Of a stretch of DNA of 11,766 nt, positions 1-10,320 are shown piece after piece (within the stretch, counting starts at the first letter, position 1; every line of letters begins with the position of its first letter). Position numbers and translations under genes: made by a program. The notes under the pieces were generated by a model. That model was not told the DNA's origin. It saw only the letters and a list, made by a program, of their open reading frames with translations, and ran no database searches. This stretch comes from an uncultured Lentisphaeria bacterium (GTDB lineage Bacteria; Verrucomicrobiota; Lentisphaeria; Victivallales; Victivallaceae). Location of the stretch: contig CAIJKT010000067.1 in assembly GCA_903821255.1 (NCBI GenBank), positions 1-11,766 on the forward strand, written 5' to 3'.

Positions 1-594
1 ATAAAGTGCCTGAACAATCATAAGCAGATCGGACTTGGCCTGGCACTTTATGCCAACGATCATAAAGACTGGATTATAAAGGTTGCAGACGCGGGCGGAA
101 ACCTTTTTGGTTATTCCTGGAACAGAGTGCTCCAAACTCAGGGGTATGTGGGGAACAAATGTACTCCTGCTACCGTCAACACAACCAAAAACAATGTGTT
201 CAATTGCCCGACGATTCCGAATCCGAAAGTACAGTCACTCTGGAGTGTTACTGACTATGTGGGTTACGGTCTCAACTGCACTACTTCGGGAACTCCCGGA
301 AATTATAATGAAGACTGGATGACATTCAATAAACTCAGCAAGCAAATGAAAAAGCTCAGCGGTTCCGTTTTAATGGCTGATTGTGCCGAAGTTATGTTTT
401 ATCCGCATGCGTTCAAGAGCAATTATCCTTATGATTTGACTGCGCCGCAGTATAACATTTATGCGCTGCACAGCAAATATGGCAATTTCCTTTTTGGCGA
501 TCTTCATGCGAAAGCGCTCGCCGCACCGTTTGGCGTCAGTGGAGCCACCAGTAATTTCCTGATTCCAACCAATCTTATAGATTTTAGAAATTAA
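1..594 (+). CDS. DUF1559-type pseudopilin with H-X9-D motif, 5'-truncated
   Basis: The reading frame is open from base 1 to the TAA at 592-594, giving 197 residues. The N-terminal prepilin peptide and most of the hydrophobic helix lie outside the window. Residues 3-23 (CLNNHKQIGLGLALYANDH) match the segment after the pilin helix in the large family of planctomycete/Lentisphaerota pseudopilins. Family landmarks follow: an aromatic W-x(5)-GY stretch near residue 40, an F-x-CP motif near 67-70, and DYVGYGLN near 85-92. The H-X9-DG signature appears as H157 and D167, but the Gly is replaced by Leu168. Such proteins are thought to be exported and assembled by type II secretion or type IV pilus-like machinery. 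Their roles are mostly untested. The gene lies 34 bases before a secreted beta-sandwich gene and may share its transcript. The family call is firm. A role in glycan capture is inference from context only. Confidence 0.85.
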   Translation: MKCLNNHKQIGLGLALYANDHKDWIIKVADAGGNLFGYSWNRVLQTQGYVGNKCTPATVNTTKNNVFNCPTIPNPKVQSLWSVTDYVGYGLNCTTSGTPGNYNEDWMTFNKLSKQMKKLSGSVLMADCAEVMFYPHAFKSNYPYDLTAPQYNIYALHSKYGNFLFGDLHAKALAAPFGVSGATSNFLIPTNLIDFRN

Positions 595-1138
595 AACAGT
601 AATTAATGAATAAAACGGAGAAAAAACAATGAAGAAATGGATTTGTACAGTTGTACTGTCGCTGACCGCATTTTCTACAGTGCTGGGTGTTGATTTTGAA
701 TACAGCCAATGGTGGGGCGGCGGCACTTCTGCCAAAGTCTCGGTTGCCGCAGAACCGAAAGCGATGGGTGACGAACAAGGATTTAAGTTTACGGCCGAAC
801 CCGCGCCTAAAAAAGAAACTTTTGCGTGCGTTTCCTATGCGTTCAATCCGGCGACGGACATGAACGACTTTAAAAGCATTGAGTTTTCGGTAAAATCCGA
901 TCATGCAATCAGCATCATGCTGTCTCTGGATTGCGAAGGCGGTACGCTGGTCGGAACATGGCTTCAGGAAACAGCAGGCAATGATTTCAGGAAATTCACT
1001 TTCGACCGCACTTCCATGAAAATCAACGGAAAACCGGACTTGAGCAAGGTGAAGGCGCTGGCTGTCGGTTTCGGCACCTGGGGATTCGACACCACCAGGG
1101 AAGGTTTTACCGCAATTGTTGCCGGAATCAGGATCATT
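551..1138 (+). repeat. Tandem duplication, copy A (pseudopilin tail plus small secreted gene)
   Basis: This segment aligns with 1228-1805. The offset is 677 bases upstream of the genes and 667 inside them, because the leader is 10 bases shorter in copy B. Within the coding part the first 170 residues align without a gap, and I count about 105 identical, roughly 62%. Homology continues upstream of the start codon through the last codons of the pseudopilin gene. It is therefore a duplication of chromosomal DNA, not just a shared protein domain. Copy A ends in a stop codon soon after the domain, while copy B runs on into the large enzyme. Confidence 0.85.
570..589 (+). repeat. 20-base exact direct repeat, copy A, with inner inverted repeat
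   Basis: The sequence CAATCTTATAGATTTTAGAA occurs here and again at 1247-1266 with no mismatch. Inside it, AATCT and AGATT (571-575 and 579-583) form an inverted repeat around TAT. Here the element overlaps the last codons of the pseudopilin gene and ends 39 bases before the next start codon. Adjacent bases are much less conserved: 12 of 19 just upstream, and the leader downstream has gaps. This suggests an operator or other nucleotide-level signal. Simple chance retention after duplication is possible. Confidence 0.6.
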
Positions 1139-1168
1139 AACTCACCGGCTGCCGTTCCCCGGAAGTAG
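629..1168 (+). CDS. Small secreted beta-sandwich protein, stand-alone copy of the N-terminal domain of the next gene
   Basis: The product has 179 residues. Residues 1-20 are a signal peptide (basic MKKW, hydrophobic core, likely cut after VLG), so the mature protein is about 159 residues and exported. GGAG at 617-620 sits 8 bases before the ATG. I do not recognise a named family. The pattern (an aromatic-rich GG segment near 28-32, then FKSIEFSVKSD, then FRKFTFDR near 125 and a GFGTWGFD strand near 150) resembles galactose-binding-like or CBM11/CIA30-like sandwich domains, so glycan binding is a reasonable guess. About 62% of residues match the first domain of the 1296-6731 protein; residues 80-98 are identical. 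The protein ends with VPR-K just where the large protein continues with VPR-P into its second domain. It therefore looks like a truncated duplicate of that gene's 5' end, kept intact and apparently translated. A separately soluble or surface binding protein is the likeliest role. Confidence 0.8.
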   Translation: MKKWICTVVLSLTAFSTVLGVDFEYSQWWGGGTSAKVSVAAEPKAMGDEQGFKFTAEPAPKKETFACVSYAFNPATDMNDFKSIEFSVKSDHAISIMLSLDCEGGTLVGTWLQETAGNDFRKFTFDRTSMKINGKPDLSKVKALAVGFGTWGFDTTREGFTAIVAGIRIINSPAAVPRK

Positions 1169-1203
1169 CTCTTGACGATTTATTGGCGGGATGTTGAAAA
1201 ACT

Positions 1204-1228
1204 CCGGTCATGCCTCCTGCATGACTGG
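1204..1228 (+). other. Strong hairpin between the duplicated genes
   Basis: Bases 1204-1213 pair with 1219-1228 over 10 positions (nine Watson-Crick pairs, one G-T) around a 5-base loop CTCCT. The plus-strand tail is TAATTCTATG, not a clean T run, so it is a poor rho-independent terminator for the small gene. It may act as a partial terminator, an mRNA end protector or a processing site, lowering the large-gene transcript relative to the small one. On the minus strand the hairpin would be followed by GAGTTTTTC, which is more terminator-like, but no minus-strand gene leads into it. Confidence 0.55.
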
Positions 1229-1265
1229 TAATTCTATGATTATGATCAATCTTATAGATTTTAGA
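1215..1265 (+). pseudogene. Relic of pseudopilin 3' end in the leader of the GH2-like gene
   Basis: Translated in the frame of the downstream enzyme, these 17 codons read SCMTGNSMIMINLIDFR. The end of the pseudopilin gene, codons 538-588, reads SGATSNFLIPTNLIDFR. Ten of 17 residues match without gaps, and the spacing to the duplicated gene start fits a shared origin. The stop codon that ends the pseudopilin is not present here. The relic is therefore in frame with the enzyme, which lets the open frame extend back to 1191. It lies upstream of the signal peptide and is probably untranslated. Confidence 0.65.
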
Positions 1266-1805
1266 AGTCAGCACTATTTATTATGGAGAAAAATGATGAC
1301 AAGATGGCTTTATGCAATTATACTGTCGATATCGGCAATTTCGACGGCATGGACGATGGATTTCGACTATGGCAGGTGGGTGAGCGGCGGCAGCTCCGCA
1401 AAACTTTCGATTGCGGCGGAGCCGAACGCTCTCGGCGAAGAAGCCGGATTTAAGTTCACGTCCGGGATCGCTCCGAAAAAGGAGAACTATGCCTGTGCCA
1501 CCTATTATTACCGTCCGCCGGCGGATATGAAAGACTTTAAAAGTATTGAATTTTCGGTAAAATCCGATCATGCGATCAGTATCATGCTGGGGCTGGATTG
1601 CGAAGGCGGCACGATGACCGGGGCATGGTATAAGGATGTTGCGGGCAAAGACTTCAAGAAATTTATTTTCGACCGCGCCTCCATGAAAACCAAAGGCAAT
1701 CCGGACTTGAGCAGGATCAAGACTATGAGTGTCGGTTTCGGTATCTGGGCGTTCGACACCACGAAGGAGGGTTTTACTGCCACGGTGGCCGGAATAAATG
1801 TGATT
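1228..1805 (+). repeat. Tandem duplication, copy B (pseudopilin relic plus N-terminal domain of large enzyme)
   Basis: This is the partner of 551-1138. Similarity is uneven: bases 1533-1613 match 866-946 at 73 of 81 positions, with the coding change confined to one codon. Much of the rest is near 60% at protein level. Copy B has lost the bulk of the pseudopilin gene. It keeps the leader element, signal peptide and first domain, fused to the rest of the enzyme. Confidence 0.85.
1247..1266 (+). promoter_or_regulatory. 20-base exact repeat, copy B; operator candidate
   Basis: It is identical to 570-589, including the AATCT-TAT-AGATT inverted repeat at 1248-1260. It ends 29 bases before the chosen start codon of the large enzyme. 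Here it lies in an untranslated leader and does not overlap an intact gene. Full conservation in both a coding and a non-coding setting favours a function in DNA or RNA. No regulator gene is in the window to pair with it. Confidence 0.4.
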
Positions 1806-4800
1806 GATGCTCAGGAAATGTATATTGTTCCGCGTCCTACCGCAGGGGTGGCGATTGATGGCTTATACCGCAAGGACTGGGGATATGAAGACAATCTTTA
1901 CAACTGGACCCCGCCTGATTTCATTAAGATGGACAATGCTAAATTTGTGATTCCCGGCAGCGGCAAGTGGAAAGGCCCGGAACAGCTCTCCGGACAGTTT
2001 GCCCTGATGAAAGATGACACCAGCATTTATTTTCTGGCGATAGTCGCGGACGAAACTCCTGCGGGCGGATCAAGCATTGACGCCTGGAGCAATGACTCGA
2101 TAGAACTGTTTCTGGTGCCAGGAGTGAAGAAAAAAGAACTGGCGGAAAATAGTGATTTTGGCGGCAGGGGCATACAAATTATCTTTGACTGCGGAGCTAA
2201 AAATCAACCACCGCTGGTAGTGATGAAAGGCGCTAAATCCAACATAACAATAGAATCTAAACTGGTCAGGAACAGTCTGCTGGTTAACGGAAAGCAGACC
2301 AGCGGTTATGTGCTGGAGGCGGCGATTCCAGTCAGGGCGTTTCCCGGCTGGAATCCGGAAAAAGGCCAGATGCTGGCCTATGATATCAAGCTGAACGACA
2401 GTACCGGATTGGGGCTGATTGCCACACCGGACAATCTGAAACCTCATGCCAATTTCAAGAACTTCAAGAAGGCCTATCTGGAGTTTGTCGCCGATGAGAA
2501 AACACGCGATCTGACTTTTGGCACTCCGGCGGCGGATGTCTTCTGGCCTGCAAAATATACCGGCGGCAAAAAAATAAAAATATGGGATGACAGTCAGGCC
2601 TGTTCCATGGATGTCAGCTCCACTACCAAACGGATTTATCTGAATTCGTTATGGGCTGTACAGGGCGCGGATAACGAGAACATGTCGCCGGTACCGGATA
2701 AATGGGTTTATACGCCGTTGCCGATGGGAATCGGCTGGTACTGTCCGGTGTTCAGGCCGGACGCTAAAAACCCCGGTCAGTTAGCCAATGCCGAAGGCAG
2801 TTGGGAAGATTTCGGAGGCTCGAAACGGTCATTCTTCTGGTATGAACGCATGTTTGTGCCGGATGCTTCATTGCAGGGACAAGCGGTCAGGTTGAACTTT
2901 GAATATGTTTACAAGGAAGCTGCGGTATATCTGAACGGTAAATTTATCGGTACGGTTACAACTTCGAATCCTTCGCTGGATGTGACTTCGAAACTGGAGT
3001 ACGGCAAACCCAATCGTCTTGACTTGTTGCTGTTCACTGCGGTTTATCCCGGCATTACCATCGGCAATGGCACCGGGATTAACGGCGATATCTATCTGGA
3101 GGCGTTTAAGCAGCGTCCGGTAATCAAGGACATCTGGGTTAAAAAAGCCGACGGGGTTGACGGAAAGTTTGATGTAATGGTGGAGTCCACGCTTTCCGGA
3201 AAAGGCACGGTATCATGTGCCGTTATGGACAAAGATGGCCGGACTGTCGCGACTGCGGAAAAGGCTGTCAGCGATAACGGCGTTACCGAAGTTTCCGGGG
3301 TGTGCAAGGATTTCCGTCCATGGTCGCCGGAAAAACCTGAAATGTATAAGCTGAATGTTAAAATCACGGCAGAGGCCGGAACTGTTCAGGAAAAAGGCGT
3401 TGACTTCGGATTCCGGCGGTTCGAAATCAAAGACGGCCATTTTCTGGTCAATAATAAAATTATGCGGATGCGTGCCGCATATGCCACCAATCCATCTGGA
3501 GTATACGATCCGGAACGGCTGCAATATTTGAAGAAATTCGGATTCAATTTCATCTATCTGCATTCGATGAGTGATGGCTATAATAATGCGCTGTATGAGT
3601 TGCTGGACCGTTACGGCTTTATGGTTATGGCGCCGATCAATCATGCGTTCTCCGACCCGGAAACAGTTGCGGAAGTCCGGCGTTTCAGGAATCATCCTTC
3701 GGTGATTGCTTATATCAGTGATCCTTACGGTCAGCTTGACGTTAACGGTTTTGCCCATAATCCGTTTGCCATGGATGATAATTTTATGCCGGACAGCCAG
3801 GAAGCGCTGAATCTCTATGCATTTCTCAAAAGACGGTTCAATTTATTCCAGACGATAGATCCGACCCGTCCATATATTTCACAGGGGACCGGCAATCTGC
3901 CGGGTTCGATGAAAAACTCCCATCAGTATCCCTGCAACGAGTTGAACCTGCTTGACCGCGTCATGTACTACGGACCATGGTCGGAGCGGGAGGAGAAGAA
4001 GCTGCCGCACTTTATTTATGAAGCTGGCACCACCAATCTGATTACGATGGATGCCGCCCATCCGCACGATAAGTTTCCAATAGAAAACGGGCGTATGGTG
4101 AATCGTCTGCTGGTGCATGAAGTCGGCGCCCGTTATCTTGGCAACAAGGTATTTGACAACTGGCAGTATTGGGGCGCCATGTTCCACCAGGGATCGCTGC
4201 GCGGGTTCAGGACGGCCGGGATTGATGGTTTCACCGCATGGGTGGATGATGATATATTCCTGGCCCCTGCAAATACTGTGAAGGCGTTGGATATTAAGGA
4301 TAACCGGCAGCTTTCCTATAAATATTTCATGCTGCCTTATGATCAGGTGGTCGAAGACAACTGGATGCGCATGAACAGCTGGTATTACCGGCTCCGCGCT
4401 ATTGCCCGCTGGCAATGGCCGGAACAATACGGACAGGGGAAAATCAAGCCAGTCGCCTCTGAATATACCGCTATCTACGAAAATGAAATGCAACCGTTTT
4501 TTGCCTATATCGGCGGTGAAAAAGGACATGTCTATGCGCTGGATCACAACTATTACGGCGGCGATGCCGTCAGCAAGCAAATTGTGGCAATCAATGATAC
4601 GGAGAATGCCGTTGCGCAGAGTTTCGAAGTGGCTCTGGATGTAAATGGACGCAATGTCAAAAAGGAGACATTAACAATAGATGCTCCGCAGGGCGGGATT
4701 ATACAGCGTCCGCTCGAATTCACCCTGCCGGAAGTTACGGTTAAAACGCCTGCCGTGATCCGGTTGTCATACATTGACAAAGATGGTAAAGCGCGCGGCG

Positions 4801-6731
4801 ATGCTTTTAAAATCACTATTTTCCCGCGCCGGAATGTCGCCGGAGCAGATTATGCCGTGATGGATTTGGCAAAATGGCAGTCCGGGCATCCTGGTGTGAA
4901 AATCGGCGTGGTTGCGGACGGCCGGCCGCTTGCGGCCAAAACCGGATTGCAGCTCATTCCAGTCGATCTCCGCCAGTCAATTCCGGAGGATATTAAACTG
5001 TTGATTGTTGAGCGTGGCGCGTTGAGCAGGCAGACTGACGGCGATGTCATGAAGAATTTTATTGACCGCGGCGGCAGAGCGCTGATTTTCGAGCAGACAG
5101 ATGCCGGACTGTTAGACTGGAGACTGCGTGAACGCCGTATTGAACATCTGTTTATCGCGGATAAAGCGCATCCCGCGGTTGCGGGACTGGATGATGCGGA
5201 TCTGGCATATTTGCGCGGCAGGGCGGGTACAGTGCCATCGGAAAAAAGACCGTCGAAGTACTACCGTAATAACCACGGGCCCGGACTGGAGACCCCGCAT
5301 TTGACCAATGAGGGTATTGCTGCCGCGTATGTGATGGACAAGCCATGCTATGGCAACTTTACTCCGATTCTCAACTGCGGTTATGACCTTGAAGAAACCG
5401 CGCTGCTGGAATTGCGTTCCGGCAGGGGCAGGGCGGTTCTCTGTCAGGTGGACGTTACCGACCGTTACGGATTGGATCCCGCTGCAACAAGACTGGTCAA
5501 CAATCTGTTGCTCTACATACTCAACGATAAACCTGAGGCAATGCTTCCGGCAGTCAAATACTTCGGCGGCGAGAAAGGCTTGAAGTTTCTGGACAGACTG
5601 GGCATTGATGCAAAAGGCAATGCCGCTGCCGGGGTTGCAGTGGTCGGTGACAATGTTACTTTGGCCGAGTCGGAACTGGCGGCGTTTAAATCTGTAGTAG
5701 TTCTGCCGTTTTCCAATTTCCTGCCGTCCGGCGTTGCGGTTAAAAAGAACCGTATCCAGATACTTACCTATCCGCATTACTGGAATAATACATTCTATCA
5801 ACTTTTCCTGCAGAAAAGTTTGCTGCCCGGAGCAGACCGGCTGGGCGAGGCGGTTTCTCCGCTATTTGCCGGACTTACTGATACAGACTTCTATTTCTTT
5901 GAAAACCCGGAGTTCCGGTCATTCAGTCTTAATAACTCCGTATCTGGAATAAGCAGGGAATGGACTTCCGCACAAGGCGTTGCTGCCGTATTCAAAAATG
6001 GTCGCGGCAATTTGATTCTGTGCGGTGTTGATCCGTATGCTATTACCAGTGATGAATCCCGCCGTAAAGCCTGGCGTATCTGGTCGATGGTTTTTTCCAA
6101 TCTCAATTTGCAGAATCGCTTTACTGCAAGCTGGAAAATACCTCCGCTGGATATTTCCGAAGGCGACTGGACGTTCCTGACCGATCCTGACGGCAGCGGG
6201 GAGAAAACCGGTTTCCAGAAAGGCCAGTTCGGCGAACGTCAGCCGCGCGGCATTCTTACCGGGCAAGTGTGGGAGGAACAGGGCGTGAATGAGAAAAATC
6301 CGCATATGAATGCGGCGCCGGAATCAGCTTATGACGGCTTCGGCTGGTATTTCCGCCGGGTTGCGCTGCCGGAATCGGTGAAGGGCGTAAAATTATATTT
6401 TGAAATCGACGGCGTCAGAGATATAGCAACCTATAAGGCATCCGACAATCAGACCACGCTTTGGCTGAACGGCAGCAGGATGCCGCCGCCGGTAGAAGTT
6501 CAAAATGCCCACATGGGCGGTCGCGGCGCCAGAATGTGGGAACTGCCTGCCGGGGCATTCAAGCCGGGAGCTGACAATTTTATTGCCATCCAGATATTCA
6601 ACGGCAGCGGAGTCGGCGGTATTCACCGCAAGCCGGTGCGTTTTGAAATCGAGGGCCAGAATCAGGACATGCTCTTCCCTTATGAGTTTGTCCATTCGAA
6701 GTACACCAACTACTTTTTCTGGTGCTGGTAA
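1296..6731 (+). CDS. Giant secreted GH2-like glycoside hydrolase with CBM-like, CBM9-like, GATase-like and C-terminal sandwich domains
   Basis: The product has 1811 residues. I chose ATG 1296, not 1191 or 1293: GGAG at 1285-1288 is 7 bases away, it aligns with the start of the duplicated small gene, and a signal peptide (MTRWLYAIILSISAISTA) follows directly. Domains in order: beta-sandwich 21-170; CBM9-like 178-395 (W-x-NDSIELF near 265, GYVLEAAIP near 337); GH2 sugar-binding jelly roll around 510-600 (FWYERMFVP, AVYLNGKFIG); Ig-like about 640-700; TIM barrel from about 703 (FGFRRFEI, RNHPSVI 798-804); Ig-like about 1090-1185; two class I GATase-like Rossmann folds, about 1200-1410 and 1411-1610; and a second jelly roll 1624-1811. 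E909 in IYEAG fits the GH2 nucleophile. The acid/base position after HPSVI is Tyr811, with no Glu. It probably acts on galactoside- or uronide-type glycans outside the cytoplasm. The substrate is unknown. Confidence 0.88.
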   Translation: MTRWLYAIILSISAISTAWTMDFDYGRWVSGGSSAKLSIAAEPNALGEEAGFKFTSGIAPKKENYACATYYYRPPADMKDFKSIEFSVKSDHAISIMLGLDCEGGTMTGAWYKDVAGKDFKKFIFDRASMKTKGNPDLSRIKTMSVGFGIWAFDTTKEGFTATVAGINVIDAQEMYIVPRPTAGVAIDGLYRKDWGYEDNLYNWTPPDFIKMDNAKFVIPGSGKWKGPEQLSGQFALMKDDTSIYFLAIVADETPAGGSSIDAWSNDSIELFLVPGVKKKELAENSDFGGRGIQIIFDCGAKNQPPLVVMKGAKSNITIESKLVRNSLLVNGKQTSGYVLEAAIPVRAFPGWNPEKGQMLAYDIKLNDSTGLGLIATPDNLKPHANFKNFKKAYLEFVADEKTRDLTFGTPAADVFWPAKYTGGKKIKIWDDSQACSMDVSSTTKRIYLNSLWAVQGADNENMSPVPDKWVYTPLPMGIGWYCPVFRPDAKNPGQLANAEGSWEDFGGSKRSFFWYERMFVPDASLQGQAVRLNFEYVYKEAAVYLNGKFIGTVTTSNPSLDVTSKLEYGKPNRLDLLLFTAVYPGITIGNGTGINGDIYLEAFKQRPVIKDIWVKKADGVDGKFDVMVESTLSGKGTVSCAVMDKDGRTVATAEKAVSDNGVTEVSGVCKDFRPWSPEKPEMYKLNVKITAEAGTVQEKGVDFGFRRFEIKDGHFLVNNKIMRMRAAYATNPSGVYDPERLQYLKKFGFNFIYLHSMSDGYNNALYELLDRYGFMVMAPINHAFSDPETVAEVRRFRNHPSVIAYISDPYGQLDVNGFAHNPFAMDDNFMPDSQEALNLYAFLKRRFNLFQTIDPTRPYISQGTGNLPGSMKNSHQYPCNELNLLDRVMYYGPWSEREEKKLPHFIYEAGTTNLITMDAAHPHDKFPIENGRMVNRLLVHEVGARYLGNKVFDNWQYWGAMFHQGSLRGFRTAGIDGFTAWVDDDIFLAPANTVKALDIKDNRQLSYKYFMLPYDQVVEDNWMRMNSWYYRLRAIARWQWPEQYGQGKIKPVASEYTAIYENEMQPFFAYIGGEKGHVYALDHNYYGGDAVSKQIVAINDTENAVAQSFEVALDVNGRNVKKETLTIDAPQGGIIQRPLEFTLPEVTVKTPAVIRLSYIDKDGKARGDAFKITIFPRRNVAGADYAVMDLAKWQSGHPGVKIGVVADGRPLAAKTGLQLIPVDLRQSIPEDIKLLIVERGALSRQTDGDVMKNFIDRGGRALIFEQTDAGLLDWRLRERRIEHLFIADKAHPAVAGLDDADLAYLRGRAGTVPSEKRPSKYYRNNHGPGLETPHLTNEGIAAAYVMDKPCYGNFTPILNCGYDLEETALLELRSGRGRAVLCQVDVTDRYGLDPAATRLVNNLLLYILNDKPEAMLPAVKYFGGEKGLKFLDRLGIDAKGNAAAGVAVVGDNVTLAESELAAFKSVVVLPFSNFLPSGVAVKKNRIQILTYPHYWNNTFYQLFLQKSLLPGADRLGEAVSPLFAGLTDTDFYFFENPEFRSFSLNNSVSGISREWTSAQGVAAVFKNGRGNLILCGVDPYAITSDESRRKAWRIWSMVFSNLNLQNRFTASWKIPPLDISEGDWTFLTDPDGSGEKTGFQKGQFGERQPRGILTGQVWEEQGVNEKNPHMNAAPESAYDGFGWYFRRVALPESVKGVKLYFEIDGVRDIATYKASDNQTTLWLNGSRMPPPVEVQNAHMGGRGARMWELPAGAFKPGADNFIAIQIFNGSGVGGIHRKPVRFEIEGQNQDMLFPYEFVHSKYTNYFFWCW

Positions 6732-6772
6732 GTTTTACTTTACATTTAGCCGTATAAGTTAAGGATTATGAC

Positions 6773-8161
6773 ATGAAAAAATATGTTCATCCGCGATATA
6801 CGTACGACCACTTGCAGGTCATACAACTGAAACGTTCGGACGAACTGCTGGTTAATCCGGGGATGGGGTTTGAAACCTACGAGCGGTTTAACGGCGACAT
6901 TACCGAAACAAAAAATTACTGGAATGATGACGGCCCCACTGAATATGGCGAATTTACCGGGAACATCAATAACGAAGGTCATCCCGATACTTCGATTGCG
7001 TATTTCCGCTGGTACTGGGCGCGCTTGGAACCGGAAGAAGGAAAGATAGACTGGGACATCATTGACCGGGCGATTGAGCAGGCGCAAAAACGAGGTCAGC
7101 AGCTTCATCTGCGCTTGATGCCTCATGACCAGTTCGGCCTTCTGCCTGCATGGTATATAAAAAAAGGCAGGCTGATATGGTATAAAGTTGAAGGGAAGGA
7201 CTGTTGCATTCCTGATTACAATGATCCGCTGTTCCATAATTCGATGGAAAAACTGGTGTCGCTAACAGGGCAACGCTACGACGGACATCCGTTGTTGTAT
7301 GCAATGGATATCGGCACACTCGGATTCTGGGGAGAGTGGCATAATTACCAAGTTCCGGGGATGCCCATGGGAAACGAATGCCTGAGACGATGGGCGGTTG
7401 ACATCTATCTAAAAGCGTTCAAAAAGACTCCGCTCATCATGCTTGTCGGTTGTACGGATGCTCTCCAGTATGCTGTGGCGAACGGCGCCGGGTGGCGAGC
7501 TGACAGCTGGGGCGACATCAGCGATGGCAAATGGAGCCATATGCGGAGCAGGTATCCGATGGGTCTGGGCATGGCCCGCGCACAGGAAGCCTGGAAACGC
7601 GGACCTGTATGCCTTGAACCTGGCGACACTCTGATCGCGTGGCATATTCAGGAGAGAAAGAAATACTTTGAATTTACCCTGGACGAGGCGCTGCGCTGGC
7701 ATGCTTCGCTGATCATGATTAAGAGCACCGTGGTTCCGGAAGAATGGCGGCCGGCGATTGATGAATTCCAGAAAAAGATCGGATACCGGTTTGCAGCCGG
7801 AGATATACGGCTGCCGGCAGACGCTAATGCCGGAAGACCATTTTTACTGGAGCAAAACTGGGCGAATCTCGGCGTTGCGCCGTGTTATAATGATTTTAAG
7901 ATTCTCGTGCGGCTGGTTCCGGCAGACGGCAGCGGTACGGCGCTTGATGTCGAACTGGTTCATAATTTTAAAGAATGGATGCCTGGCGATGATCAATTCC
8001 TGGATGATTCCATTTTTCTGCCGGATGGCATGAGCAAAGGCCGGTATGAACTGCGCCTGGCAATCGTGCGCCCCGGACAGAGCAAGCCGGCTGTAAAAAT
8101 GGCGAATGAAGGAAGAGATGATGACGGCTGGATGCGGGTTGGCGAAGTCAATATTGACTGA
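6773..8161 (+). CDS. DUF4832-type TIM-barrel glycoside hydrolase, cytoplasmic
   Basis: The product has 462 residues. It starts 41 bases after the GH2-like gene, with AAGGA at 6761-6765 seven bases before the ATG, so the two are probably co-transcribed. No signal peptide is visible; the start is hydrophilic. NPGMGF at 28-33 is the hallmark opening of DUF4874/DUF4832 proteins. Residues 79-98 (RWYWARLEPEEGKIDW) match the R-x-x-W-x-x-xEP-x-x-G-x-x-x-W pattern of clan GH-A enzymes such as GH42. Candidate catalytic residues are E188 in GFWGEWH (strand 4, acid/base) and E282 in PVCLEPGD (strand 7, nucleophile), 94 residues apart as usual for the clan. From about 360 (NWANLGVAPCY) a C-terminal beta domain follows, as in DUF4832 proteins. 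It likely cleaves imported oligosaccharides. Linkage and sugar cannot be read from the sequence. Confidence 0.8.
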   Translation: MKKYVHPRYTYDHLQVIQLKRSDELLVNPGMGFETYERFNGDITETKNYWNDDGPTEYGEFTGNINNEGHPDTSIAYFRWYWARLEPEEGKIDWDIIDRAIEQAQKRGQQLHLRLMPHDQFGLLPAWYIKKGRLIWYKVEGKDCCIPDYNDPLFHNSMEKLVSLTGQRYDGHPLLYAMDIGTLGFWGEWHNYQVPGMPMGNECLRRWAVDIYLKAFKKTPLIMLVGCTDALQYAVANGAGWRADSWGDISDGKWSHMRSRYPMGLGMARAQEAWKRGPVCLEPGDTLIAWHIQERKKYFEFTLDEALRWHASLIMIKSTVVPEEWRPAIDEFQKKIGYRFAAGDIRLPADANAGRPFLLEQNWANLGVAPCYNDFKILVRLVPADGSGTALDVELVHNFKEWMPGDDQFLDDSIFLPDGMSKGRYELRLAIVRPGQSKPAVKMANEGRDDDGWMRVGEVNID

Positions 8162-8274
8162 TCGAAAGCTGGTAAAAAGCTTTGCGCAGGCTATATTCAG
8201 AAGTGGTAAGGTCTCCACGAATAATAAGTGCAAGTCAATAAGTTTTGCGCATTGCATCGCGCGGAGTGCTGTTA

Positions 8275-10320
8275 ATGAATGATTTATACCGTTTTCAGAT
8301 GCCTCTTCCGTTATGTGGGTTTCCGGCCGAGAGTAATCATCCGTCATTTCGCCGTATCTGGAAGCCACAGCCCCAAATGAAATTCGATCCTGCATTGCCT
8401 CCGGATGAATATGCCTGTTTTAACCGGGGAATCCCCGATACCATTCTGCCATATTCATCGCAGGATGGCTACACCCGGGATCGCCGGACCGGTGAACTGG
8501 CGACGCTGGTGCTTGAAAATAATCGCCTGCGTGCGACTTTTGTCCCTTCACTGGGCGGCCGTCTCTGGTCGCTGCTGGACAAGCGGGACGGACGCGAATT
8601 GCTCTATTCGAATAAAGTTCTGCAATTTGGCAGACTGGCGCTCCGTAACGCATGGTTTTCCGGAGGGATTGAGTGGAATGTCGGTTTCAGGGGACACTCC
8701 CCATTCACGGCCTCCGACCTTTTTGCCGCCAGGTTGACCAGCGGAGGCCGCCCCGTTTTGCGTTTTTACGAATGGGAGCGGGTGACCGGGACTCCATTTC
8801 AAATGGATTGCTTTTTTACCGATGATGATTCTGATTTTCTCTTCACTGCGGTGAAGATCGTCAATCCGGATGCTGCCGCAACTTCGACCTACTGGTGGAG
8901 CAACACTGCTTTCCCGGAGACTCCGGATACCCGCGTCATAGTTCCGTCAGAGCGCGCGATAATCCACCAAAACGGAATTCATCTTGTCCATCCTTCCGAC
9001 CATGAAGGGGTGGATGCAACCTATCCGAGACGGGTGAGCGCTGCTATTGACTACTTTTATTATATGCCTGCCGGTACCCGTCCGTGGGAAGCCGCAGTGC
9101 AAAAAGACGGACGCGGATTGCTTTGTACTTCAACGAAAGTGATGCGCGGCCGCAAGTTGTTTCTGTGGGGAAGCAGTCAGGGCGGGCGGCACTGGCCGGA
9201 TTTTCTATCCGAACCAGGAACACCGTATATTGAAATTCAGAGCGGACTGGCGAAAACTCAGTTGGAATCGGTGCCGATGCCGCCTGAAAGCGAATTTTTC
9301 TGGGTTGAGAGCTTTGGACCGGTCGCCGGCGATCCCGCATCTTTGCACGATCAGGATTATCGCATTGCAATGAACGCAGTTGCCGCTGAAGTGGAACGCC
9401 GCCTGCCTGAATCGAAAATAGAGGAGATCGCGGCACAGGCCCGTCTGGTCTCAAACCGGACCCCGGAGGCAATTTTACACCATGGCTCCGGCTGGGGCGC
9501 ACTTGAATTACGCCGCCGCATCGCAGATGATGTCGCGCCGTTTGAATTTGCCCCGAATATCTATCCAGAAAGCGGTCTTGGCCCATTACAGGAACCGTGG
9601 CTGGAATTGCTGGCGGGGCGTTTACCGGATTCAGTGGCGATTAAGCTGCCGGGCTGGCAGACCTCGGAAGCGTGGTATATGCGTCTGCAGACTGCTGAAA
9701 CTGACTTGCCCGGAGCAGCGTCCCACCCCTGGTTGCAGTATCAACTGGCAGTCAATGAGTGTAAACGTGGAAAAAATATCACTGCTCTTGCCCGTCTCGA
9801 ACGCTTGAATGTTCCATCGTTCGCGATCAGTATTATTGAACGGGTCAAAGCCCTTTTATATACAATGCAAAAACAACCGGAACAGGCATTGTCGGCATGG
9901 ATGCGCGTGCTGAATGCAGAACCCGGTAATGACATGCTGCTGAGCGAAGCCATGGACAGCTTCATGGATGCCGGTCGCACCGCTGAATTTCTACAGCATT
10001 TATCATCAGGCACCGAAGCCGGAGGACGCATGAAATATCTGCGCGCAAAAACGCTGCTGGCATTGGGGCGGATTGATGAAGCCGCCGCAATTCTGGACAA
10101 ACCGTTTGAGGTAGCAGATATGGCCGAAGGTGAGATATGCCTTAGTGAACTCTGGCTGGAATTACAGACCAGGCTTAAGGCGCGTGATGCAGGATGCAGA
10201 TGGGATGCTGTCTATCATGCGGCGCACCGGGCGGATTATGAAAATGATATCCCGTGGATATTCGATTTCCGCATGACCGCAGCGACTGTAGCGGAGAAGC
10301 AAAAGCAGTATCCTGTATAA
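8275..10320 (+). CDS. DUF5107 protein with C-terminal TPR-like repeats
   Basis: The product has 681 residues. ATG 8275 is preceded by GGAG at 8263-8266 with 8 bases between; an in-frame TTG at 8245 has no such site. No signal peptide is seen. Residues 30-380 carry the DUF5107 pattern: GGRLWSLLDKRDGRELLY from 94, NAWFSGGIEWN-x-GF-x-GHSP from about 125, then a long beta-rich stretch to FFWVESFGPV near 350. This fold is related to galactose mutarotase-like sandwiches. From about 487 to 660 the sequence is helical with TPR-like pairs (EQALSAWMRVLNAEPGN, ALGRIDEAAAIL). Family members usually sit beside glycoside hydrolases, and some have many more TPRs than here. A sugar-ring-handling or oligosaccharide-processing role in the cytoplasm fits, but no reaction is established to my knowledge. 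It lies 113 bases after the DUF4832 gene, probably in the same operon. Confidence 0.82.
   Translation: MNDLYRFQMPLPLCGFPAESNHPSFRRIWKPQPQMKFDPALPPDEYACFNRGIPDTILPYSSQDGYTRDRRTGELATLVLENNRLRATFVPSLGGRLWSLLDKRDGRELLYSNKVLQFGRLALRNAWFSGGIEWNVGFRGHSPFTASDLFAARLTSGGRPVLRFYEWERVTGTPFQMDCFFTDDDSDFLFTAVKIVNPDAAATSTYWWSNTAFPETPDTRVIVPSERAIIHQNGIHLVHPSDHEGVDATYPRRVSAAIDYFYYMPAGTRPWEAAVQKDGRGLLCTSTKVMRGRKLFLWGSSQGGRHWPDFLSEPGTPYIEIQSGLAKTQLESVPMPPESEFFWVESFGPVAGDPASLHDQDYRIAMNAVAAEVERRLPESKIEEIAAQARLVSNRTPEAILHHGSGWGALELRRRIADDVAPFEFAPNIYPESGLGPLQEPWLELLAGRLPDSVAIKLPGWQTSEAWYMRLQTAETDLPGAASHPWLQYQLAVNECKRGKNITALARLERLNVPSFAISIIERVKALLYTMQKQPEQALSAWMRVLNAEPGNDMLLSEAMDSFMDAGRTAEFLQHLSSGTEAGGRMKYLRAKTLLALGRIDEAAAILDKPFEVADMAEGEICLSELWLELQTRLKARDAGCRWDAVYHAAHRADYENDIPWIFDFRMTAATVAEKQKQYPV

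Follow-up and report, generated by a model that had tools for sequence, protein, structure and literature searches.

Carbohydrate-binding modules (CBMs) are usually examined either within the enzymes that carry them or as families in their own right, and the duplication of a domain to yield a free module is known in principle. The locus reported here lies on an 11,766-nucleotide (nt) stretch of contig CAIJKT010000067.1 from an uncultured Lentisphaeria bacterium (assembly GCA_903821255.1; 'the window' below), where a 179-residue protein repeats the N-terminal domain of a giant enzyme encoded just downstream, related to glycoside hydrolase family 2 (GH2). The closest described systems are CtCBM11 (PDB 1v0a, 6r31 and 6r3m), the Bacteroides protein SGBP-B (PDB 7kwc), which is a surface or soluble glycan-binding protein of polysaccharide loci, GH2 beta-galactosidase-like enzymes such as GalA and LacZ, and tandem paralogues under gene conversion, which show concerted evolution. 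In an open-access library, none of the titles and abstract openings listed seemed to treat this locus.

The window domain is 15-16% identical to CtCBM11, without a Pfam CBM_11 match, and unlike CtCBM11 it occurs as a stand-alone protein too. Unlike proteins of the SGBP-B type, the free protein is a partial duplicate of its enzyme's own domain, and it carries a plain signal peptide with no lipobox by eye. The two copies share with tandem paralogues under gene conversion a head-to-tail placement and the presence of recombinants; unlike ordinary tandem paralogues, they pair a complete gene with one domain of a far larger one. The best explanation, which we hold to be probable with some reserve, is a partial tandem duplication followed by selection for a free and a tethered domain that recombine with each other, in about four lineages.

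A repeat that crosses gene boundaries

The features of the window on which this explanation draws are the following.

1..594, + strand: 3' part of a DUF1559-type pilin gene; its 5' end is lost at the window edge, and its tail (551-594) recurs upstream of the enzyme
570..589, + strand: 20-nt stretch of the pilin tail coding for NLIDFR, with an exact second copy at 1247-1266
629..1168, + strand: stand-alone domain gene, 179 amino acids (aa), with an ATG start, a ribosome binding site (GGAG, 617-620) and a TAG stop
1228..1292, + strand: pilin 3'-end remnant and adjoining spacer, preceding the enzyme gene; junction scar of the duplication
1293..1826, + strand: fused domain copy at the enzyme N-terminus (signal peptide plus domain, residues 1-178), for which orthologues were found
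1293..6731, + strand: giant GH2-like enzyme gene, 1812 aa, with predicted secretion and Pfam domains

The small protein and the enzyme N-terminus align ungapped over approximately 174 residues (BLOSUM62 local score 605). The initial annotation had put their identity at about 62% over 170 residues, and across the whole aligned pair we obtained 59%. At the DNA level, a direct repeat of 300 nt (692-991 and 1359-1658, 73% identity) recurs at a distance of 667 nt. The same annotation had credited the small gene with a ribosome binding site, a signal peptide and a stop; all three are present, the peptide being predicted by eye at approximately residues 1-20 and followed, in the structure model, by a CBM11-like beta-sandwich.

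The homology was also said to reach upstream into the tail of the pilin gene. A repeat search recovered this extension (551-615 and 1228-1292, 71% identity, including the exact 20-nt match), with the correction that only about the last 15 pilin codons are repeated. The pilin tail and the spacer before the enzyme align with a score of 43, whereas none of 2000 shuffles exceeded 30. The presence of a piece of pilin tail before the enzyme indicates that the copied segment started within the pilin gene and extended as far as the enzyme's N-terminal domain reaches. A similar remnant precedes the enzyme in the related genome G001 (G numbers denote surveyed genomes), and a more diverged and partial one in G002, so that the duplication predates their split from the window lineage. 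The weakest link of the duplication reading lies here: conversion of the window's pilin by the remnant would give an identical picture. In G001 and G002 the match between each genome's own pilin tail and its own remnant is not above that of shuffled sequences, the pilin tail having changed.

Occurrence of the pair in relatives

A domain profile was run against 197 genomes of the class, the first 17 candidates being scored in large genomes, and it matched in 13 of them. The 22 matches comprise seven stand-alone frames (in G001, G002, G078, G135 and G117, and two in G137) and 15 lying in longer frames, among which that of G026 is weak (E 8e-5). A small gene found by itself, far from any enzyme, would speak against a duplication; none of the seven stand-alone copies is so placed, and each is paired with a fused copy that begins 10 to 124 nt downstream. 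The arrangement is not peculiar to the window cluster, since it recurs in other lineages. A phylum-wide draw of 387 genomes, with at most eight candidates scored in each, added nothing to the class survey.

The small gene occupies the same slot, between pilin and enzyme, in all lineages. The pilin directly before it is whole in five cases, partial at the first G137 locus (G137a) and reduced to its last codons at the second (G137b). Six of the 14 related enzyme loci are not preceded by a small gene (G003, G134 twice, G136, G153 and G154), and the fused locus of G180 is cut by a contig end. Protein searches returned seven relatives of the small protein and three of the fused form, one of the latter nearly identical to the window's own. 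A family profile gave 28 protein matches, some of them fragments, which include those seven relatives; one of the 28, P0026, is a piece of a fused gene. No relatives of the small gene were found in phages or in PHROGs, and on viral contigs 52 stretches fit a pattern, of which none was confirmed as a relative. One of the two G137 small genes (L027:318-803) lacks 16 residues immediately past the signal peptide, a gap that takes in the position of W28.

Probable origin from a fused ancestor

The domain tree was computed from 46 rows and again after 12 had been dropped (five recombinant rows, and seven that were near copies, mixed, long or partial). We chose to root it on G153 and G154, taken as outgroup because they lie outside the order searched; both have fused copies only. 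In the reduced tree four lineages are seen (window/G001/G002, G135/G137, G117 and G078), and within each the fused copies form the sister group of the small ones. The label 'small' or 'fused' changes six times in the 46-row tree, at least five of these changes being forced by well-supported branches, and four times in the reduced tree. A single clade of all small copies was rejected (approximately unbiased test, p 1e-48), as was one uniting just the small copies of the window and G135 types (p 1e-4). Long-branch warnings were raised for G078 in the 46-row tree and for G117 in the reduced one. With G180 and protein P0029 kept, the fused copy of G117 groups with that of G180 (80/70) and not with its own small copy, which makes the G117 case less secure.

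The enzyme of G003, which has no small gene, is the sister of the window group and falls outside both its small and its fused clade (support 99/88 with 46 rows and 90/82 in the reduced tree). Together with the fused-only state of G153 and G154, this placement supports the proposal of the initial annotation that a boundary-crossing partial tandem duplication arose from a fused ancestor. No pilin N-terminal motif was found in the 16-kb contig of G003. The opposite order, in which the domain existed first as a free protein and only later became part of the enzyme, would account for stand-alone copies in about four lineages; given that the window lineage's sister and the chosen root rows are fused only, and that a pilin remnant before the enzyme gene fits a distal copy arising with the duplication, we regard it as very unlikely.

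Repeated duplication or one ancient event

The tree is compatible with two histories. Most likely the free/fused arrangement of the four or so lineages was formed more than once. Alternatively, a single duplication took place before the lineages split, and conversion has since overwritten the copies within each of them (concerted evolution), so that small copies come to resemble their own fused partners; this is a substantial possibility, if short of an even chance. The identical slot between pilin and enzyme across lineages favors the ancient event, as do G136 and one G134 locus (G134a), which have no small gene yet show a spacer of the pilin-small type. Their first 60 nt are slightly nearer to the small copy of G135 (44/60 and 43/60) than to its fused copy (38/60 and 39/60), as expected if a small gene had been deleted by crossing-over.

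Recombinants point the same way. At 16 diagnostic substitution columns, P0021 is fused-type at the first eight and small-type at the last eight; P0018 is fused-type at 12 and small-type at one, with a small-type end; and the fused copy P0026 has small-type states at four of the seven columns within its reach. The contigs carrying P0021 and P0026 are shorter than 900 bases, and that of P0018 is 210 kb long. Two further proteins, P0013 and P0014, are fused-type at five of the last six columns, which may reflect exchange or a retained old state. A run test for exchange within each genome's own pair gave p values of 0.0036 for the window, 0.011 for G135 and 0.0047 for G137b, and of 0.27 and 0.25 for G001 and G002. 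Among ten cross-genome control pairs, two also fell below 0.05 (window small/G003 fused, 0.004; G001 small/window fused, 0.017). Both belong to the eight controls of the window lineage, for which reason the putative conversion tract in the window pair (alignment positions 224-323) is only suggestive. For G135/G137 there is good support for exchange between the two types of copy.

Against the ancient event, overwriting would be needed on the stem of each lineage with little exchange afterwards: the small and fused clades are separate in the window and G135/G137 lineages once recombinants are left out, and the pairs of G001 and G002 give no sign of exchange. The junctions also differ. The spacer between small gene and enzyme is 112-124 nt in the window lineage, where it contains the remnant, and 45, 23, 24 and 10 nt in G078, G135, G137 and G117; in the two of these that were tested for the pilin remnant, G078 and G135, there was no match. 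The differing spacers and the lineage-specific remnant favor repeated duplication, at least for the window lineage.

Selection on both copies

Both copies are maintained. A comparison of nonsynonymous to synonymous divergence (dN/dS) had been proposed in the initial annotation. Among the window, G001 and G002 the ratio is 0.16-0.24 for the small copies and 0.19-0.25 for the fused domain, low values that indicate purifying selection on each and that are rough because synonymous divergence is high (dS 0.64-0.96 between small orthologues). In three comparisons with the window, dN is 0.16-0.22 in the fused domain and 0.02-0.12 in the enzyme's barrel region, so that the domain evolves faster. The small gene might instead be a neutral leftover of duplication with a frame open by chance, as its absence from six of the 14 enzyme loci would allow; that it should have kept such low ratios over this much synonymous change, and that none of the seven stand-alone matches has an inner stop (an apparent one in G117 is that frame's own end), make this very improbable.

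Domain fold and possible role

The small protein was modelled with a predicted local distance difference test score (pLDDT) of 89.5, and the modelled domain has the beta-sandwich fold of CBM11, its top fold matches being CBMs of glycan-degrading enzymes. The likeness to CBM11, a class defined by beta-1,3-1,4-glucan binding, is one of modelled fold. No Pfam family, CBM_11 (PF03425) included, matched the window small protein at E 1, and one of the 18 members of set A3 matched CBM_11, at E 0.1 only. A sequence search of the PDB with the domain gave no relative; a lone antibody chain (E 0.18) was taken as chance. The 'binding module' of the initial annotation is a putative one, named for similarity of fold to CBMs.

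Alternatively, the domain could serve docking or export together with the neighboring pilin and not bind glycans, the free copy being a periplasmic or pilus-associated partner. Gene order allows the guess that the upstream pilin may serve export or surface placement. We consider a docking role doubtful, as the closest folds belong to CBMs from enzymes that degrade glycans, and pilins also precede enzymes that have no small gene (G134 twice, and G136).

The enzyme is GH2-like

Three regions of the enzyme were assigned by residue.

Enzyme residues 226-371: CBM9-like region
Enzyme residues 514-578: GH2 sugar-binding domain
Enzyme residues 611-708: GH2 Ig-like domain

Like GalA and LacZ, the window enzyme has sugar-binding (PF02837, 31.0 bits, cut-off 28) and Ig-like (PF00703, 38.1 bits, cut-off 23) domains above the Pfam cut-offs. 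It falls far below the NCBIfam equivalog cut-offs (for GalA, 97 versus 900 bits), and unlike enzymes of the GalA/LacZ type it is 1812 aa long with two additional N-terminal modules. The usual GH2 acid/base residue is the Glu of an Asn-Glu motif after HPS, and the nucleophile is a Glu in the barrel. At the acid/base place, Asn-Glu is absent from all 12 aligned enzymes (the window has HPSVIAYISDPYG) and is replaced by Ser/Thr-Asp-x-Tyr/Phe-Gly, in the pattern HP[SC]xxxY[ILV][ST]Dx[YF]G (window 3690-3731), which is conserved in 12 of 12. In the nucleophile region, a Glu in the window's YEAG context is likewise invariant (12/12); the model of the barrel region is poor (mean pLDDT 64.9) and falls below 50 there. 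Because the Asn-Glu is replaced throughout, we name the enzyme GH2-like without implying GH2 chemistry. Of the earlier description 'giant glycosidase', the GH2 sugar-binding and Ig-like domains stand, and the glycosidase activity is putative. To judge from the alignment, these enzymes possibly form a GH2-like clade that uses different catalytic residues or lacks them. Between the enzyme genes of G001 and G002 (L001 and L002), dS is 0.22 in the CBM9-like region and 0.55-0.88 in the other measured regions, which hints at exchange between strains.

Gene starts, spacer and neighboring genes

The gene order of the window is pilin 3' part, 179-aa gene, 1812-aa enzyme, DUF4832/GH42-like, DUF5107 and LptF/LptG. 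The enzyme starts at ATG 1293 or ATG 1296, both 3' of a GGAG (1285-1288), and its frame in G001 and G002 starts at the equivalent of 1293. A longer frame, which opens at 1191 and extends across the remnant, was rejected as the enzyme start because relatives do not conserve it. One further feature lies in the spacer ahead of the enzyme gene.

1207..1225, + strand: hairpin GTCATGC..GCATGAC

The hairpin has a 7-bp stem that is kept in G001, and by eye a shorter stem can be seen at the equivalent position of G002; the hairpin pattern occurs once in the genome of G001 and not in those of G002 and G003. It was rejected as an intrinsic terminator of the small gene: the scan lists it on the - strand only, no + strand T run comes after it, and the number of terminator-like sites (two) compares with a shuffle mean of 2.2. 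The hairpin might set the ratio of small-gene and enzyme products.

The window's truncated pilin gene gives a weak PF07596 match (E 0.27); a complete orthologue (L001:1384-2103) matches both PF07596 and N_methyl above cut-off. The window pilin is 75% and 78% identical to the pilins adjoining the small genes of G001 and G002, and 65% identical to the other pilin of G002. In G002 a regulator-pilin cassette is tandemly duplicated (L002:3335-5150 and 5534-7390; regulators 85% and pilins 72% identical), with no enzyme behind the first cassette. A local score of 26 marks a candidate decayed small-gene start behind that first pilin, which we do not claim. At L030:8193-12000 a second pilin (8193-8972) lies directly 5' of another long frame of at least 1000 aa with no Pfam match, and pilins may generally form a unit with giant secreted proteins in such genomes. 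Downstream of the window enzyme (6773-10320) are the DUF4832/GH42-like protein and the DUF5107 protein, the latter with weak tetratricopeptide repeat matches; the corresponding genes of G001 and G002 are unlike these, and a pilin is found there instead.

A model for the free and tethered pair

In the model that we favor, the ancestor would have carried, downstream of a pilin gene, the gene of a giant enzyme with an N-terminal CBM11-like beta-sandwich. A tandem duplication starting within the 3' end of the pilin gene and reaching as far as the domain's end would have produced two copies. The pilin-proximal one would have become a complete small secreted gene with its own ribosome binding site, signal peptide and stop, and the distal one would have stayed on the enzyme, preceded by a pilin-tail scar of the kind seen in the window and in part in its relatives. 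Selection would then retain both, in keeping with their low dN/dS. Being placed head to tail, the copies would recombine: conversion would swap stretches between them, as the recombinants illustrate, and crossing-over could delete the small gene. Judged by fold and shared conserved residues, the two copies probably have a common glycan ligand or related ones. The free copy, presumably secreted by way of its signal peptide, would act as a diffusible or surface-associated glycan binder that, for example, coats, loosens or captures substrate, and having the domain in both forms might be of benefit. Within this model, the duplication with its scar, the maintenance of both copies by selection, the recurrence of the pair and the recombinants are supported directly by the sequences.

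More tentatively, a locus of the Victivallales type may repeatedly give birth to a free secreted domain copy between pilin and enzyme, with conversion keeping the copies matched, and so maintain a soluble-plus-tethered binding pair that is perhaps delivered by the pilin. The recurrent birth or conversion of the same free/fused pair is the unusual part of these loci. They offer a natural case of fission from domain to gene in which the junction scar is still visible, as well as an instance of conversion in which a complete gene and a domain within a second gene are the partners. With free and fused versions of the domain recurring side by side, they also provide a test of whether an untethered twin aids its own enzyme.
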